From: Streptomyces sp. NBC_00091
GTDB taxonomy: Bacteria > Actinomycetota > Actinomycetes > Streptomycetales > Streptomycetaceae
Reading direction: 5' to 3'
Assembly: GCF_026343185.1 (NCBI RefSeq)
Contig: NZ_JAPEMA010000001.1
Location: 3,472,001-3,536,000 of the forward strand
DNA length: 64,000 nt
In this document: positions 2,081 through 53,116 of the stretch, in pieces
Numbering within the stretch: the stretch's first letter is position 1
Layout: the number at the start of each line of letters is the position of its first letter
Program-made: the position numbers and the translations under genes
The notes under the pieces: model-generated
Databases searched by the model: none
The model's input: only the letters and a program-made list of their open reading frames with translations
What the model was told of the DNA's origin: nothing

Positions 2081-2285
2081 CGGGACTCCAAGGGGTGCGT
2101 CGTTGCGGGACCGCAAGCGAAGTTACCGCCCCGTACGGTCGAGGTCACCGGCCTCGGCATGTGATGCCGGTCGCTCTGCCGGCCCGCCCCGAGCCTCCCG
2201 GTACGTAGAACGCGCCCCGGCAGCCCCCTATGCCGCCGATCCCGGGGGGCCGGCCAGAGGGCTCTTCACCCCGCCCCGCCCTTCC

Positions 2286-2356
2286 TCCGTTCCCCGGACC
2301 CTCCCCCAGACTCCGTCCGGGGGGACCCCCAGCCTCAAACGCCGGCGGGGCTGGAT
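2286..2356. repeat. Half copy of interspersed palindromic element (family 1, copy A)
   Basis: In the 313-bp gap between the thiolase and the SGNH hydrolase, 2334-2355 carries the TCAAACGCCGG...GGCTGGA core found as the left arm of the complete copies near 5.3 kb and 12.35 kb. It is preceded by the same GC-rich lead-in (CCCGCCC...CCCCGGACC). The matching right arm is missing, since the SGNH stop codon at 2394 follows within 40 bp. The element lies just past the 3' end of the leftward SGNH gene, where it could act as a transcript-end hairpin remnant. Nothing else is visible in the gap. Confidence 0.6.
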
Positions 2357-2393
2357 TGTGGCTGAGCCGCACTCGAAAGCGCCTCCAGGCGGC

Positions 2394-3398
2394 CTAGGCC
2401 TGGGGGGCCGCCGGTTCCGGGACGGGGGGCGCCGGGAGGCGCCGGCGGCGGCGGTGCTTGAGCAGGGCCCACGGCCCCCGGGCCGCCGTGACCTCCGTAC
2501 CCGCCTCGCCCGCGGCGGCGGACGCCGCCTTGGCCACCAGCAGCATGTCCTCGTCCCGCGAGACGTCCAGCCGGTCCGACCCCGGCCACAGGCCCAGCGC
2601 CGCGCACAGCGTCGGCAGCACGGCCATGGCGGCGGTCGCGTACCCCTCCGCCGAAGGGTGGTAGGAGTCCGGGCCGAACATCTCGCGCGGGTTCGCCGCG
2701 AACTCCGGGCCCAGCAGGTCCCCCATCGAGAGCGTGCGCGCCCCCAGCGCGACCACGCCGATCGTCTGCGCCGCGGCCAGCTGCCGCGAGACCCGGCGGG
2801 CCATCCACCGCAGCGGCTGGTAGACCGGCTCGATGGTGCCCAGGTCGGGACAGGTGCCGACCACCACCTCGCAGCCCGCGAGCCGCAGCCGCCGTACCGC
2901 CGCCGTCAGCAGCCGCACCGACTGGGTCAGCGGCATCCGCCGCGTCACGTCGTTCGCGCCGATGATGATCACGCAGACGTCCGGCGGCGGCGCGTCCCCC
3001 TCCAGGAGCAGCGACACCTGGCGGTCGAGGTCGTCCGACATGGCCCCGGACTGCGCCACGTTGCGCAGCTCCACCGGTCTCTCGGCCACCGCCGCCAGCC
3101 CGGAGGCCAGCAGCGCGCCCGGAGTCTGGCGGGCCCGCCGTACGCCCAGCCCCGCCGCCGTGGAGTCGCCCAGCATGCCCATCCGCAGCGGACCCGGGCT
3201 CAGCTCCGGCCCGCCGAACTCGCTCCCGTACAGGCCGTCGGCGCGCGGCGGATCCCCGAGCCCGTTGCCCACGGTGCGCTTGGCGAACTGGACCTCCGCC
3301 AGCACCAGCCCCACCGCGGCGACCCCGACCAGCCCGAGCCCGCCCCCGCCGTACGCTGCCCCCGCCGCGATCCGGCGGGCCGTCCTCGCCCTGGACAC
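2394..3398 (-). CDS. Membrane-anchored or secreted SGNH/GDSL hydrolase
   Basis: SGNH-fold esterase/lipase-like hydrolase of 334 residues. Block I is GDSTAAG with nucleophile Ser79, block III is GAND near residue 148, and block V is DSYHPSAEGY near residue 247 with the catalytic Asp and His. A Gly/Val-rich hydrophobic segment at about residues 12-34 suggests a signal anchor, so the active domain is probably extracytoplasmic. The C-terminus is basic and Pro-rich. The GTG start at 3398 has GGAGGAGG 8 nt upstream. The gene is divergent from the cystathionine beta-synthase gene across 125 bp, which must hold both promoters. Substrate unknown; acyl groups on envelope lipids or glycans are possible. 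Confidence 0.88.
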   Translation of the reverse strand: MSRARTARRIAAGAAYGGGGLGLVGVAAVGLVLAEVQFAKRTVGNGLGDPPRADGLYGSEFGGPELSPGPLRMGMLGDSTAAGLGVRRARQTPGALLASGLAAVAERPVELRNVAQSGAMSDDLDRQVSLLLEGDAPPPDVCVIIIGANDVTRRMPLTQSVRLLTAAVRRLRLAGCEVVVGTCPDLGTIEPVYQPLRWMARRVSRQLAAAQTIGVVALGARTLSMGDLLGPEFAANPREMFGPDSYHPSAEGYATAAMAVLPTLCAALGLWPGSDRLDVSRDEDMLLVAKAASAAAGEAGTEVTAARGPWALLKHRRRRRLPAPPVPEPAAPQA

Positions 3399-3523
3399 CC
3401 TTCGAGCCTCCTCCTGCGTCGTGTTGACCTACCTGCCCCGTACTGCCGGTCGGCCAATCCCTTTCCGCATACTCTGGCCGGACCTCCCGGAGAACCCGTG
3501 GAGTCCCCTTCTTGGAGAACATG

Positions 3524-4906
<1,383 letters not shown>

Positions 4907-48716: not shown

Positions 48717-48856
48717 CCGGCCCAGCGTACGCGGGCCCGTCCCTCGTACGGAGGGCACCGGCTCGCCCGTACAGGGGAGTCGAGCCCGGCGGACCGTCGG
48801 ACGGATCGTCAGTTCTCCGATGGCGGTTCGTGGTGGGTGTGCTCAGCATCGCTTCC

Positions 48857-50317
48857 ATGCGTGCATTCCTTGCTTCCTCGATCGGCGTCGCGACGGCTGC
48901 CGCACTGGCCCTGCCGCTCGCGCTCCCCACGCCCGCCCTGGCCGAATCGACCCCGGTGCGGCCCGCCGGGTCCACCCAGTCACTGCCGCTCGTCCCCCTC
49001 GCGCCCTCGGGCGCCCGGATCCCCGGCGTACCCGGCATGAGCACCTCGCCCGCCCCGGCCGGGACCCGGGGCCTGGCCGCGCGCGAGGTCAAGACCTTCT
49101 CGCTCGTCGGCGTCGTCTGGGACGACGTGAGCACCCAGCTCGTCGGCCGGGTCCAGGTCCGCACCCGCGCGGTCGGCACGCACCGCTGGTCCGACTGGCA
49201 GGACGTCGAGACCCACAACGGCGAGCACGCCGCCGACCCCGACGCGGTGGAACGCGGCACCGGCCGCGTCCGCGGCAGCACCGCCCCGCTGTGGGTCGGC
49301 GCCTCCGACGGCGTGGAGGTCCGGGTCCAGGCGGAGAACGGCGCCACCCGGGCCGGGGCCCGCCTCCCCTCGGGCATGCGCATCGAACTCGTCGACCCGG
49401 GCGCGGAGCAGCCGGCCCCGGCACCCGACGGCAAGAACGGCGCGAACGGCGCCAACGGCCCGGCCGGGGACCGCCCGGCGACCCGCCCCGCGGAGCGCCC
49501 GGGGGAGCGCCCGGCGGACGGCCCCACGGATGACGACAAGGGCGACGCGGTGGCGCTGCCCGGGATGACCATGGAGGTGGCGGAGTCCTCCTCCGCCAAC
49601 CTCCCGCACGCCCCGCTCGGCGCGCTGGAGATCCCCGCCCTGAACAAGGCGGACTCCACCGCCGACGCCGCCTTCGCGGACGACGGGGACCCCGGCCCGG
49701 CCGCCGCGCCGTACATCGGCCCGCGCCCGAAGATCGTCACGCGGCGCGGCTGGGGCGCGGACGAGACCCTGCGCGAGACCGGCTTCGTCTACACGAGCAC
49801 CGTCAAGGCGGCCTTCGTCCACCACTCCGCCTCCGGCAACAACTACGCCTGCAAGGACGCCCCGGCGGTGCTGCGCAGCCTGTACCGCTACCACGTGATC
49901 AGCAGCGGTTGGCGGGACTTCGGCTACAACTTCGCCGTCGACAAGTGCGGGACGGTCTACGAGGGGCGGGCGGGCGGAGTCGCCAAGCCGGTGCTCGGGG
50001 CGCACACCATGGGCTTCAACGCGGACAGCATGGGCATCGCCGTGATCGGCAGCTACGGGTCCACCGCGCCGCCGGCCGTGGCCGTGGAGGCGGTGGCCCG
50101 CCTCACGGCCTGGAAGCTGGGCCTCTTCGGCGCCGACCCGCGCGCGAAGACCACCCTGAAGTCGGGCGGCGGCAACCGCTACCCGAAGGGCAGCAGCGTG
50201 AAGCTGAACGTCATCTCGGGCCACCGCGACGGCTTCGCCACGGAATGCCCGGGCCGCCTCCTCTACAACCAACTCCCCCCGACCCGCACCTCATCGGCGA
50301 AGCTCCAGGGCCGGTAG
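48857..50317 (+). CDS. Secreted peptidoglycan-recognition/N-acetylmuramoyl-L-alanine amidase
   Basis: 486 residues. Signal peptide FLASSIGVATAAALALPLA with a cleavage-like TPALA|ES, a beta-rich N-terminal region (VGVVWDDVSTQLVGRVQVR), a Pro/Ala/Gly-rich linker, then a PGRP/amidase_2 domain (about 285-475). Zinc ligands are present: His in AFVHHSAS, His in ISGHRDGF and Cys in TECPGRLLY, so it is probably an active amidase cutting the stem peptide from muramic acid. ATG 48857 is chosen for the signal peptide; GTG 48830 and 48839 are in frame. It acts in the wall, next to genes that attach wall polymers. Confidence 0.9.
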   Translation: MRAFLASSIGVATAAALALPLALPTPALAESTPVRPAGSTQSLPLVPLAPSGARIPGVPGMSTSPAPAGTRGLAAREVKTFSLVGVVWDDVSTQLVGRVQVRTRAVGTHRWSDWQDVETHNGEHAADPDAVERGTGRVRGSTAPLWVGASDGVEVRVQAENGATRAGARLPSGMRIELVDPGAEQPAPAPDGKNGANGANGPAGDRPATRPAERPGERPADGPTDDDKGDAVALPGMTMEVAESSSANLPHAPLGALEIPALNKADSTADAAFADDGDPGPAAAPYIGPRPKIVTRRGWGADETLRETGFVYTSTVKAAFVHHSASGNNYACKDAPAVLRSLYRYHVISSGWRDFGYNFAVDKCGTVYEGRAGGVAKPVLGAHTMGFNADSMGIAVIGSYGSTAPPAVAVEAVARLTAWKLGLFGADPRAKTTLKSGGGNRYPKGSSVKLNVISGHRDGFATECPGRLLYNQLPPTRTSSAKLQGR

Positions 50318-50383: not shown

Positions 50384-50777
50384 GGGGCGGTCTCACAGTT
50401 GGTTTGGGGGTTTCCCGTCAGTCCCATCGTCCTTCCGTGTCGGGCCGGCCTGTCAAGGGCGCTCCTTCGTCGCGTCGCTTCGCGATGGCCTTCGGCCACC
50501 CTTGACAGCCCGTCCCGCCCCGGAAAGACAAGGACTGCCGGGAAGCCCCCAAGAGAACGGTCACGGGGCAAGAGTGGGAGGGACGGGTCCCTCAGCGATG
50601 AGGCGAGGGACCGGGGGCCGGCCCGCCGGGCATCCGGGCCCCTTGATCCCTGGTCCAGGGCCGGGAGCCCGACTACCTGCACCAAATGCTGACCAGATCC
50701 CCCTGCGGACCACCCAAGCGCATCAGATCGCTACGCGCTCCTCATATCTCGGCGTCCGGCGGCCGTCTTGGGCTGAT
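50384..50777 (+). repeat. Left arm of ~395-bp inverted repeat around the CYTH gene
   Basis: Near-identical, inverted, to 51613-52008. The outer 41 bases 50401-50441 (start GGTTTGGGGGTTTCCCGTCA) are an exact match, and after one mismatch the match continues for about 64 bases through TGTCAAGGGCGCTCC and CCACCCTTGACAG. The arm is itself palindromic: TTGGGGGTTTCCCGTCAGTCC (50404-50424) opposes GGACTGCCGGGAAGCCCCC (50532-50550), and CTGTCAAGGG opposes CCCTTGACAG. Its inner third (about 50620-50720) is more diverged. No coding features are seen. Confidence 0.9.
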
Positions 50778-50882
50778 ACCGGCACCAAATGACGACCAGA
50801 GCAGCGCGGGAAGCGGATGGGCGCGTCAGATCGCTACGCGCTTCTCAGATCTCAGCGGCAGTCGGTCGTCTTGGGTTGATGG
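50678..50882 (+). repeat. Tandem ~103-bp direct repeat in the left arm
   Basis: Two units, 50678-50779 and 50780-50882, each beginning GCACCAAATG and ending near GTCTTGGG(C/T)TGAT, both with TCAGATCGCTACGCGCT in the middle. The right arm has a single inverted unit (about 51613-51714), which resembles the second left unit (AGAGCAGCGCGGGAAGCG) more than the first. Confidence 0.8.
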
Positions 50883-50886
50883 GGGC

Positions 50887-51465
50887 TTACTGCGGGGGTC
50901 GGGGTTGCTCGCCCAGGCGACGGGCCCTGACTGCAGCGGTGTACAACTCACGTGTCAGGTCTTCAGCACGGATTCCCAACTCGGCGAGGACGATGCGGAC
51001 GTCATCGAGGGCTGAGGCCACGTCCTTCTCCTCTGCCAGGGTCTCCAGCTCCAGGAACGTCCCCTCCACCTCGGGGACGCGGACCAAAGTGGCGAGCATC
51101 TGCCTGCCCCGGGCCTCGAAGGCGTAGTTCCTGCACCGCTTCTCGAACGCGATGGCCGGCACGTAGCCGAGACCTCTCAGCGTGGCGTGTACGGCTTCCG
51201 CGTCCTCGACACGGGTCTCGTGCTCCGGCTTGGATCCGGATTCCTCGTCGACCCGGGCGCCCTTGTACGTGAGAACGGTGCGGGTCTCCTCCGGACCATG
51301 CACGGTCCGGACCCGAAGCTCTTCGTCCCGGGCCTCCAAGGCTCCATCCGCGGTGTCGTAGTAGGTGTCCTGGTACACCTCTGCCCGGCCCTCGGCCCGC
51401 TCATCCAGCTTTCGCAGCGTCTCGTGCGGCGAATGGACGCGCGCCTTCAGCTCCGCTTCGATCAT
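50887..51465 (-). CDS. CYTH-domain protein (class IV adenylate cyclase / triphosphatase-like)
   Basis: 192 residues, one complete CYTH triphosphate tunnel domain. The N-terminal ExExK signature is EAELK near residue 3, followed by YQDTYYDTADGAL, LRVRTV, LTYKGARVD and FEKRCRNY, the alternating charged strands that line the tunnel, and LELETLAEEKD. The family includes CyaB-type adenylate cyclases, thiamine triphosphatases and inorganic triphosphatases; the substrate cannot be chosen from sequence. ATG 51465 has AGGGG 7 nt upstream; the 71-codon extension upstream lacks support. It is the only gene between the inverted-repeat arms, which suggests it moved in as a unit. Confidence 0.88.
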   Translation of the reverse strand: MIEAELKARVHSPHETLRKLDERAEGRAEVYQDTYYDTADGALEARDEELRVRTVHGPEETRTVLTYKGARVDEESGSKPEHETRVEDAEAVHATLRGLGYVPAIAFEKRCRNYAFEARGRQMLATLVRVPEVEGTFLELETLAEEKDVASALDDVRIVLAELGIRAEDLTRELYTAAVRARRLGEQPRPPQ

Positions 51466-51612
51466 CCGTCCGCCCCTCTCAAACCGTGCGGGTGGCAGAT
51501 TCATGCCCTTCCCACCCCGCGTCGAACGCACTGACGAACATGGGGGAGTCAGCCTCCGTGGCGCGTCTGGCCGCGAATTCACCACGGCCGTCGCCAACGT
51601 CGAACCCGCCAA
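51466..51612. other. Upstream region of the CYTH gene inside the island
   Basis: 147 bp between the CYTH start and the right arm. It must hold the CYTH promoter, but I see no clear hexamers. No other gene. Confidence 0.35.
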
Positions 51613-52008
51613 CGACCAGCCCAAGACGGCCGTTGGCCGCTGAGATACGAGGAGCGCGTAGCGATCTGACGCGCCCATGCGCTTCCCGCGCTGCTCTCGT
51701 CAGCATTTGGTGCAGGTAGTCGGGCTCCCGGCCCGGATACAGGACCGTGAGGGCCCGGATGCCCGGCGTGGCAAGGGAAGACCCCTCGCCTCATCGCTGA
51801 GGCGCCCGTCCCTCCCACTCTTGCCCCGTGACCGTTCTTTTGGGGGTTTCCCGGCAGTCTTCGTTTTTCCGGGGCGGGACGGTCTGTCAAGGGTGGCCGA
51901 AGGCCATCGCGAAGCGACGCGACGAAGGAGCGCCCTTGACAGGCCGGCACGACACGGAAGGACGATGGGACTGACGGGAAACCCCCAAACCAGCCCTGAG
52001 ACCGCCCC
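51613..52008 (-). repeat. Right arm of the inverted repeat around the CYTH gene
   Basis: Inverted counterpart of 50384-50777, same internal palindromes (51842-51990). Outside it, 52009-52117 holds only the leader of the DNA glycosylase gene. Confidence 0.9.
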
Positions 52009-52117
52009 GGGGGATACGGCTCCCCGGCCACCGGCCCGCAGACAAGGGGGCGAGGGGGAGATGGCGGGCCCGCGCCGAGTCGGGGTCGGCCCTCTCCCGG
52101 GCGGCTACGCTCGACGC

Positions 52118-53116
52118 ATGGCCGGCCGTTTCACCCCCTCCACCCGCACCACCGTCCGCGGCGGCCACACCGCCGTGCCCGCGGGCCAGGGGCGCGCCGT
52201 CGGGGCGGGCGGGAAGGGGCGGAGCTGGAACCCGGGTGTCCCGGTGGACCTCGGGCTGGTGCTCGGCCCCCTGCGCCGCGGCCCCGGCGACCCCACCTTC
52301 CGCACCACCCCCGACGGCTCCGTCTGGCGCGCCACCCGCACCCCCGAGGGCCCCGCCACGCTCCGGGTGGCCGCCACCCCCGACGGGGTGGACGCCGAGG
52401 CATGGGGCCCCGGCCGGGACTGGGTGCTCGCGCAGCTCCCCCCGCTGCTCGGAGCCGACGACGACCCCTCCGCCTTCGTCCCCCGCCACCGCCTCGTGCA
52501 CGCCAGCCACCGCAGCCGCCCCGGCCTGCGCCTCACCCGCACCGGGCTGGTGCTGGAGTCGCTGATCCCGACCGTCCTGGAGCAGAAGGTCACCGCCGAC
52601 GAGGCCTACCGCGCCTGGCGCCGCCTGGTACGCCAGTACGGGGAGCCCGCGCCCGGGCCGCTGGGGCAGGAGCTGTACGTGATGCCCGACGCCCGCGCCT
52701 GGGCGCTGATCCCCTCCTGGGACTGGCACCGGGCCGGGGTGGACATGAAGCGCTCGGCCACCATCGTGCGCGCCGCCCGGGTGGCGCACCGCCTGGAGGA
52801 GGCCGCCGCGATGGACCTCGCGCAGGCCTCCGCCCGCCTGGAGGCCGTTCCCGGCATCGGTCCCTGGACCTCCGCCGAGACCCTCCAGCGCAGCAACGGC
52901 GCGGCCGACGCCGTCACCACCGGCGACCTCCACCTCCCCGGCATCATCGGCTACGCCCTCGCGGGCGACCGCGACGCCGACGACGCCCGGATGCTGGAGC
53001 TGCTGGCCCCGTACGCCGGCCAGCGCCACCGTGCGGCCCGCCTCGTCCTGCTGGCCGGCCGCACCCCGCCCCGCCGCACGCCCCGCATGCCGCGCGGCGA
53101 CATCGGCCGGCTCTAG
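52118..53116 (+). CDS. DNA-3-methyladenine glycosylase-type protein (HhH-GPD)
   Basis: 332 residues, base-excision repair glycosylase of the AlkA superfamily. The C-terminal part holds LIPTVLEQKVTADEAYRAWR (GPD start), the helix-hairpin-helix LEAVPGIGPWTSAETLQR and the catalytic Asp in TTGDLHLP. The N-terminal ~110 residues are an AlkA_N-like domain. It removes alkylated bases. No iron-sulfur Cys cluster. ATG 52118 is taken; ATG 52062 would add 19 residues. It is convergent with fbiB (13-bp gap). Confidence 0.85.
   Translation: MAGRFTPSTRTTVRGGHTAVPAGQGRAVGAGGKGRSWNPGVPVDLGLVLGPLRRGPGDPTFRTTPDGSVWRATRTPEGPATLRVAATPDGVDAEAWGPGRDWVLAQLPPLLGADDDPSAFVPRHRLVHASHRSRPGLRLTRTGLVLESLIPTVLEQKVTADEAYRAWRRLVRQYGEPAPGPLGQELYVMPDARAWALIPSWDWHRAGVDMKRSATIVRAARVAHRLEEAAAMDLAQASARLEAVPGIGPWTSAETLQRSNGAADAVTTGDLHLPGIIGYALAGDRDADDARMLELLAPYAGQRHRAARLVLLAGRTPPRRTPRMPRGDIGRL

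Follow-up and report, generated by a model that had tools for sequence, protein, structure and literature searches.

A CYTH gene between inverted cloverleaf arms in Streptomyces: one of a dispersed set of sites whose content differs between species

Mobile insertion cassettes are transposase-less elements that carry passenger genes between inverted repeats; integron cassettes are accessory genes bounded by attC sites that fold as single strands, and are exchanged between strains; and REPINs are units of two inverted palindromes, present in many copies per genome, whose partner RAYT is a Y1 transposase. Streptomyces telomeres, according to passages of PMC4513846, contain palindromes with GCA loops that form sheared G-A pairs and are bound by Tap.

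The locus described here, in a window of 64 kb (the whole stretch of DNA analysed, 64,000 nucleotides) from Streptomyces sp. NBC_00091, can be set beside each of these. Like a mobile insertion cassette, it holds a passenger gene between inverted repeats and is free of a transposase, but its arms are several hundred nucleotides long and contain a cloverleaf, and sites of this kind are common to several species, with changing content. As in integrons, accessory genes are bounded by folding sites and appear to be exchanged between strains, whereas the units here are dispersed singly, form no array, and have two inverted arms that can hold several genes. The use of two inverted palindromes as a unit with many copies per genome recalls REPINs, although these arms are much longer and able to enclose genes, and a Y1 transposase (PF01797) is absent from six of eight carrier genomes, with one copy each in G056 and G072 and matches in 5 of 14 control genomes. 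With the telomeres the arms share C-GNA-G triloops on the strand with the outward-facing 3' end and hairpins that stand side by side, but they are chromosome-internal, paired and built from other stem sequences; we take this likeness of loops as a lead on single-strand folding, not as membership. Open-licence full texts, a scope that excludes subscription papers and preprints, yielded no description of paired arms of this kind in Streptomyces.

The left arm of the cassette (50384..50777, plus strand), which also matches arms of Streptomyces sp. NBC_00249 (G042) and of G001, the nearest genome compared with the window, forms an inverted repeat with the right arm (51613..52008, minus strand). 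The near-identity that the first-pass annotation had reported for these arms holds: an ungapped stretch of 226 nt (50384-50609 / 51783-52008) is 95% complementary, a second ungapped inverted stretch of 127 nt (50649-50775 / 51617-51743) reaches 81%, and a gapped alignment of the pair gives 87% over 393 columns. The two long exact runs it had described are also present, with measured lengths of 43 nt (50400-50442 / 51950-51992) and 65 nt (50444-50508 / 51884-51948) in place of 41 and about 64. On the left side only, an extra inner unit (50777..50878, plus strand) is 87% identical to 51617-51718. Each arm contains a core (50453..50505, plus strand, and 51887..51939, minus strand), and a search allowing up to five edits found just these two in the 64-kb window. 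An outer terminus motif, GGGCCCGCCATCTCCCCC, lies on the right side (52054..52071, minus strand) and was not found on the left side of this cassette.

Between the arms, as annotated, the sole gene encodes a CYTH protein (50887..51468, minus strand; PF01928, E 2.3e-19), and it is under purifying selection, with an omega of 0.12 against the NBC_00249 copy. The unit had been placed between an amidase and a DNA glycosylase gene; the left flank is indeed an Amidase_2 gene (48830..50317, plus strand), but for the right-hand gene (52118..53116, plus strand), which is conserved, Pfam gave no match at E 1e-3.

The arm is a dispersed repeat. The full window arm matches in 14 of 41 relatives, most strongly in G001, where a core pattern search gave 56 exact matches, 28 per strand; G007 has 40 (20 per strand) and NBC_00249 has 25, and the reversed pattern gave zero matches in G001 and G007. 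Scattered copies of the arm, through which the first-pass annotation had suggested that the unit might move, thus exist in other genomes. The exact matches in G001 comprise 26 convergent pairs, two whose partner emerges only under a relaxed pattern or with the covariance model, and two unpaired ones, and the units are scattered singly along the chromosome. Neighbouring cores were convergent in 84 of 84 cases, a count from fetched loci that were picked by their core matches and that includes one cassette twice (L031 and L259 are one and the same cassette, fetched twice). An inverted repeat of 199-658 nt and 72-96% identity was present in 56 of the 56 pairs tested, and the pair counts leave out 19 loci without exactly one core pair. 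Of 61 Streptomyces genomes, 26 gave one or more covariance-model matches at E <= 1e-4, with patchy counts per genome (59, 40, 21, 18, 15, 14, 10 and fewer); phylum-wide, 9 of 149 genomes match at 1e-5, and all but G001 score well below the G001 matches.

Eleven plasmid records match the arm, mostly in the core only, and the phage records do not. Core-only matches of 84-86% were seen on two Nocardia plasmids and, in four places, on a plasmid of Candidatus Mycobacterium methanotrophicum (records NZ_CP108384.1, NZ_CP107850.1 and NZ_CP097321.1). The twenty convergent pairs of G007 (L171-L190) have different outer stems, and the arms of one of its palindromes are 96% identical across 536 nt. The outer 60-200 nt of the arms are G-rich on the inward strand in 11 of 12 genomes (G 0.40-0.56, C 0.22-0.34), G007 being the exception (G 0.36, C 0.38). 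Four contig ends in the drafts of G060 and G046 (L274, L281, L284 and L285) fall ~0.15-0.75 kb from a core, so short-read assemblies probably undercount the pairs.

Judged by its pattern of sequence variation, the core is a conserved cloverleaf hairpin near the outer end of each arm. Eight aligned variants fit a four-way junction with 100% of cells paired, in an alignment that omits 4 of 11 earlier-aligned variants, whose longer stems were not aligned by MAFFT, and adds one. Four pairs of the junction are changed on both sides, a number equalled by 3 of 500 shuffles, and its covariation score was reached by none of 500; as for further pair types, their number was matched by 48 of 500 shuffles, which is not significant. 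The loops are uniform: 73 of 73 triloop hairpins (stem >=4) in 40 distinct cores are of TNC/GNA type and closed by C-G, as against 139 TNC and 115 GNA among 2117 background triloop hairpins (stem >=5). The left core of the window has its TNC triloops on the plus strand; the inward-reading strand has TNC in the aligned variants, and hence the outward-facing 3' strand has GNA. The window core alone folds moderately better than its shuffles (z -3.8 and -3.5, 1 of 200 each), and the energy-model minimum places hairpin B in a different register with a six-nt loop; the triloop register adopted for hairpin B follows the compensatory changes instead. The left palindrome as single-stranded DNA gave z -6.3 on the plus and -10.3 on the minus strand, with 0 of 200 shuffles as good. 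Rfam returned four weak matches, none at gathering score, and those to mir-4776 were taken as a chance likeness to a hairpin.

In G001 the window's junction consists of an amidase gene (95% across the 205 aa used as query), arms with an alpha/beta hydrolase gene (PF12146) between them, and the right-hand gene (86%). The flanks are contiguous without a cassette in six of nine genomes searched, with gaps of 39 bp in G072, 65 in G056, 199 in G060, 204 in G057, 277 in G065 and 377 in G042 (five of the six also inspected as sequence); the rest are G001, with its cassette, and G013 and G044, which are rearranged and uncounted. The first-pass annotation had reasoned that an empty site in relatives, or the same arms around other cargo, would support mobility, and this junction offers both: no cassette in six of six relatives with contiguous flanks, and a hydrolase between the arms in G001. 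Its counter-case was one arrangement in all relatives with no further arm copies; instead, other copies exist and the junction differs among relatives. In another Streptomyces (locus L217), the amidase gene and the right-hand gene are separated, at 2100-3600, by a gene that by eye resembles a nucleotidyltransferase and is absent from the window and G001.

The CYTH cargo is present in one of ten genomes searched, NBC_00249, where it has the same kind of arms but lies at a LacI/alpha-amylase junction; in G001 that junction (L163) has a different cassette. The remaining 79 CYTH loci lack enclosing arms, although L046 includes a single 72-nt arm match over 4 kb distant; CYTH genes as a family are therefore not bound to the arms. 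We read the CYTH gene as passenger cargo.

Ten sites are common to G001 and NBC_00249, six of them by both flanks, with the chain at SITE 1 read as two sites and the single flank matches at SITES 2 and 3 excluded. The main cargo is the same at one of the ten (L164/L258, with one gene more in NBC_00249) and different at six (L144/L252, L163/L259, L146/L253, L159/L251, L165/L257 and L167/L256, the small protein c0, described below, being the sole cargo in common at L165/L257); two are empty in one genome and loaded in the other (L148/L254 and L156/L249), and at L149/L255 neither side has confident cargo. Conversely, the same cargo occurs without a shared flank: XRE and HAD genes at L168/L249, HAD at L169/L251, NUDIX at L161/L250 and CYTH at the window/L259. 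Two plasmids have a similar set of GNAT, pterin dehydratase and a third gene, and their annotated neighbours differ; at the GNAT set of plasmid W1SF4 the arm is recognisable only in part. Of 14 genomes compared at site L168, five have contiguous flanks and no cassette, eight have the flanks apart, and G056 lacks both the cassette and most of the left flank gene. At site L169 the flanks are 33-818 bp apart in 12 of 14 genomes as against ~3.7 kb in G001, and only one flank is listed for G065. At the arm-free L169 site of G056 (L295) there is an insert that resembles an insertion sequence, with an ORF judged by eye to be transposase-like.

As read from these comparisons of genomes, several sites lie at the same gene junction across species, where their content usually differs, and some cargo sets sit at different sites in different species. 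The mobility proposed in the first-pass annotation is supported, but the event usually seen between species is that a shared site changes its cargo.

A pair is either empty or holds 1-8 predicted ORFs, as called by a crude GC3 rule under which some small ORFs fall within arms. Cargo-free pairs of ~0.75-1.2 kb occur in G056, G072, G005 and part of the G001 set, among others; three G007 pairs examined whole are non-coding long palindromes of ~0.9-1.5 kb, and the remaining G007 pairs hold few or no genes by the crude gene finder. Pfam matched 20 of 23 cargo proteins and left three without a match. Four are GNAT, four helix-turn-helix (one below the curated cut-off) and two alpha/beta hydrolases; the others, one each, are NAD synthase, DJ-1/PfpI, GDSL lipase with a GGACT domain, SnoaL, HAD, DUF218, NUDIX, GntR-UTRA, DUF6879 and CYTH. 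Neither the unit in the window, as annotated, nor the set of 23 includes a transposase, and Pfam found no recombinase in the set. PADLOC, run on eight cargo proteins, gave only weak matches of helix-turn-helix type in three, so there is no case for defence islands.

One small protein, c0, recurs. It has 84 aa, is found in 16 cassettes of G001 and NBC_00249 (for example L166, L168 and L160), usually adjoins the inner end of an arm, and has its last codons encoded by the arm itself; it is missing from empty pairs. The window retains C-terminal remnants only: the last 14 codons inside the left arm (50734..50775, minus strand; 93%, E 6.9e-4) and the last 35 codons, with an in-frame stop, entering the right arm (51554..51658, plus strand; 80%, E 2.2e-13). 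c0 is under constraint (omega 0.13-0.39, 15 comparisons) and has 447 homologues at E <= 0.001, with matches of Streptomyces type, and no Pfam match. A homologue was modelled as a small beta protein with a mean pLDDT of 83, and Foldseek gave no PDB match to this model at E <= 0.001.

Sequence comparison of the arms indicates that they are homogenised within each genome, independent of site. Mean within-genome identity is 0.889 in G001, 0.867 in G042, 0.823 in G056 and 0.908 in G072 (0.91 for the window pair in the same comparison), and between-genome identity is 0.707-0.823; arms of G001 and G042 are as alike at the same site (0.7913, n 40) as at different sites (0.7911, n 1192). Among G001 arms, r2 is 0.40 for positions 1-5 nt apart and 0.015 for those more than 120 nt apart, and four gametes occur in 387 of 435 position pairs; four long-range pairs with r2 >0.5 all lie within the palindrome. 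Homogenisation within genomes and a decay of linkage disequilibrium with distance were the two marks sought of concerted evolution by recombination, and both were found: frequent short-tract conversion would give such a pattern of r2 and four gametes, and recurrent mutation could contribute to the decay. Arm identity had been taken at first as a sign of recent duplication, gene conversion or mobility. It is no mark of a recent duplication of this pair as such, because partners in G001 are no closer than non-partners (0.891 vs 0.889); partners are closer in NBC_00249 (0.924 vs 0.865) and less close in G056 (0.787 vs 0.826). Near-identical empty elements lie at separate loci in G056 (99.5%, 97.5% and 95.1%), and G072 has one such pair (95.5%), which points to whole elements having spread recently, whether by conversion or by transposition.

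Because sites are shared, their content changes and the arms are alike independent of site, we consider it probable, on a comparison between genomes in which exchange is not seen directly, that the window's unit belongs to a scattered set of docking sites at which recombination through the arms exchanges cargo. The arms would provide shared homology, and a RecA-type crossover or gene conversion through both of them would replace the content of a site with that of another site or of incoming DNA. Conjecturally, a hairpin extruded in single-stranded DNA may start the exchange by way of cleavage by an SbcCD-type nuclease, or may alternatively be the recognition site of a putative enzyme. A whole unit would sometimes also enter a junction without one, such as the window's, by a further putative activity, since entry into arm-free junctions needs more than homology. 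Several observations weigh against recombination through the arms as a full account: homology leaves such entry (at the window's junction, L168 and L169) unexplained; the 99.5% identical empty elements at different loci in G056 fit transposition equally; and the likeness of partners is uneven, higher in NBC_00249 and lower in G056.

The first two of these lend some weight to transposition, which we regard as a serious but unlikely alternative: the cassettes would be transposable elements of a non-autonomous kind, with passenger genes framed by long terminal inverted repeats, and a putative transposase, or a putative single-strand recombinase, would recognise the arm in its folded form and move them in trans. 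Sites would look shared where insertions are old. It would account for arm-free junctions at three sites (6 of 6 contiguous at the window's, 5 of 14 at L168 and 12 of 14 at L169) and for the near-identity between elements of separate loci in G056 and in G072, and is consistent with an outer terminus motif that recurs on part of the G001 and NBC_00249 arms and with a hairpin conserved through compensatory changes. Against it, the 23 cargo proteins include no transposase and most carriers lack the Y1 family. The exact terminus motif occurs 13 times in G001, 12 times at arms with a core and once at a decayed unit; five decayed units or single-arm regions inspected by eye, a subset of such places in G001 and G042, hold ordinary cargo and no evident transposase, and no transposase-bearing insertion sequence with the same termini was evident by eye in the subset of units inspected outside complete pairs in these two genomes. 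By eye there is no clear target duplication, the edges lying in GC-rich repeats, and the changes of cargo at shared sites also count against transposition. Two of the decayed cassettes in G001 (L304 and L305) retain the terminus motif and inner arm units, have lost one or both cores and contain ordinary genes.

A bolder reading, which we rate as slightly less likely than transposition, gives the folded cloverleaf arms, with their telomere-like GNA loops, a dedicated putative enzyme of which they would be the substrate. Such an enzyme would excise, insert and swap gene sets, one cassette per site, among dozens of dispersed sites and between Streptomyces species, in the manner of an integron without an array.

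The hairpins might, alternatively, be paired bidirectional terminators or insulators that flank accessory genes; selection on termination would maintain them while the cargo turns over by ordinary recombination. Long stable hairpins do stand at both edges, divergent-gene junctions are rarer among cassettes (9 of 83) than among background pairs (74 of 282; Fisher p 0.003), and convergent junctions amount to 24 of 83 as against 54 of 282 (p 0.07). We find this explanation improbable, however: empty and non-coding pairs have nothing to insulate, the avoidance of divergent junctions is also expected from sparing promoters, and the triloop rule and strict pairing exceed what a terminator needs.

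It is more improbable still that the arms are telomere-like ends of a cassette able to take a small linear form, which Tap/Tpg or a similar system would process. The C-GNA-G loops do lie on the strand with the outward 3' end, the telomere palindromes bound by Tap have GCA loops (PMC4513846), and at the left end of the linear plasmid NZ_CP108163.1, 8 of 15 triloop hairpins are TNC on the inward-reading strand and none GNA (the others are 3 TTT, 2 CCC and 2 AAC). Loop type alone is in common, however, and the stems differ; no counterpart is seen at the end of NZ_CP034352.1 and no such hairpin at the assembled ends of G001, and the plasmid-end folds are no better than shuffles (z -1.3 and -1.5). 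A local inverted duplication around CYTH in the window's strain, which would explain the high identity of the two arms, we reject as having next to no likelihood, given dispersed pairs in other genomes and relatives in which the junction has no cassette or other cargo.

If the window's unit does belong to such a set of docking sites, part of the turnover of accessory genes in Streptomyces would use defined sites with interchangeable content, and the entry of small gene sets into the chromosome core would become testable at named loci. Such sites would be natural landing pads for strain building.
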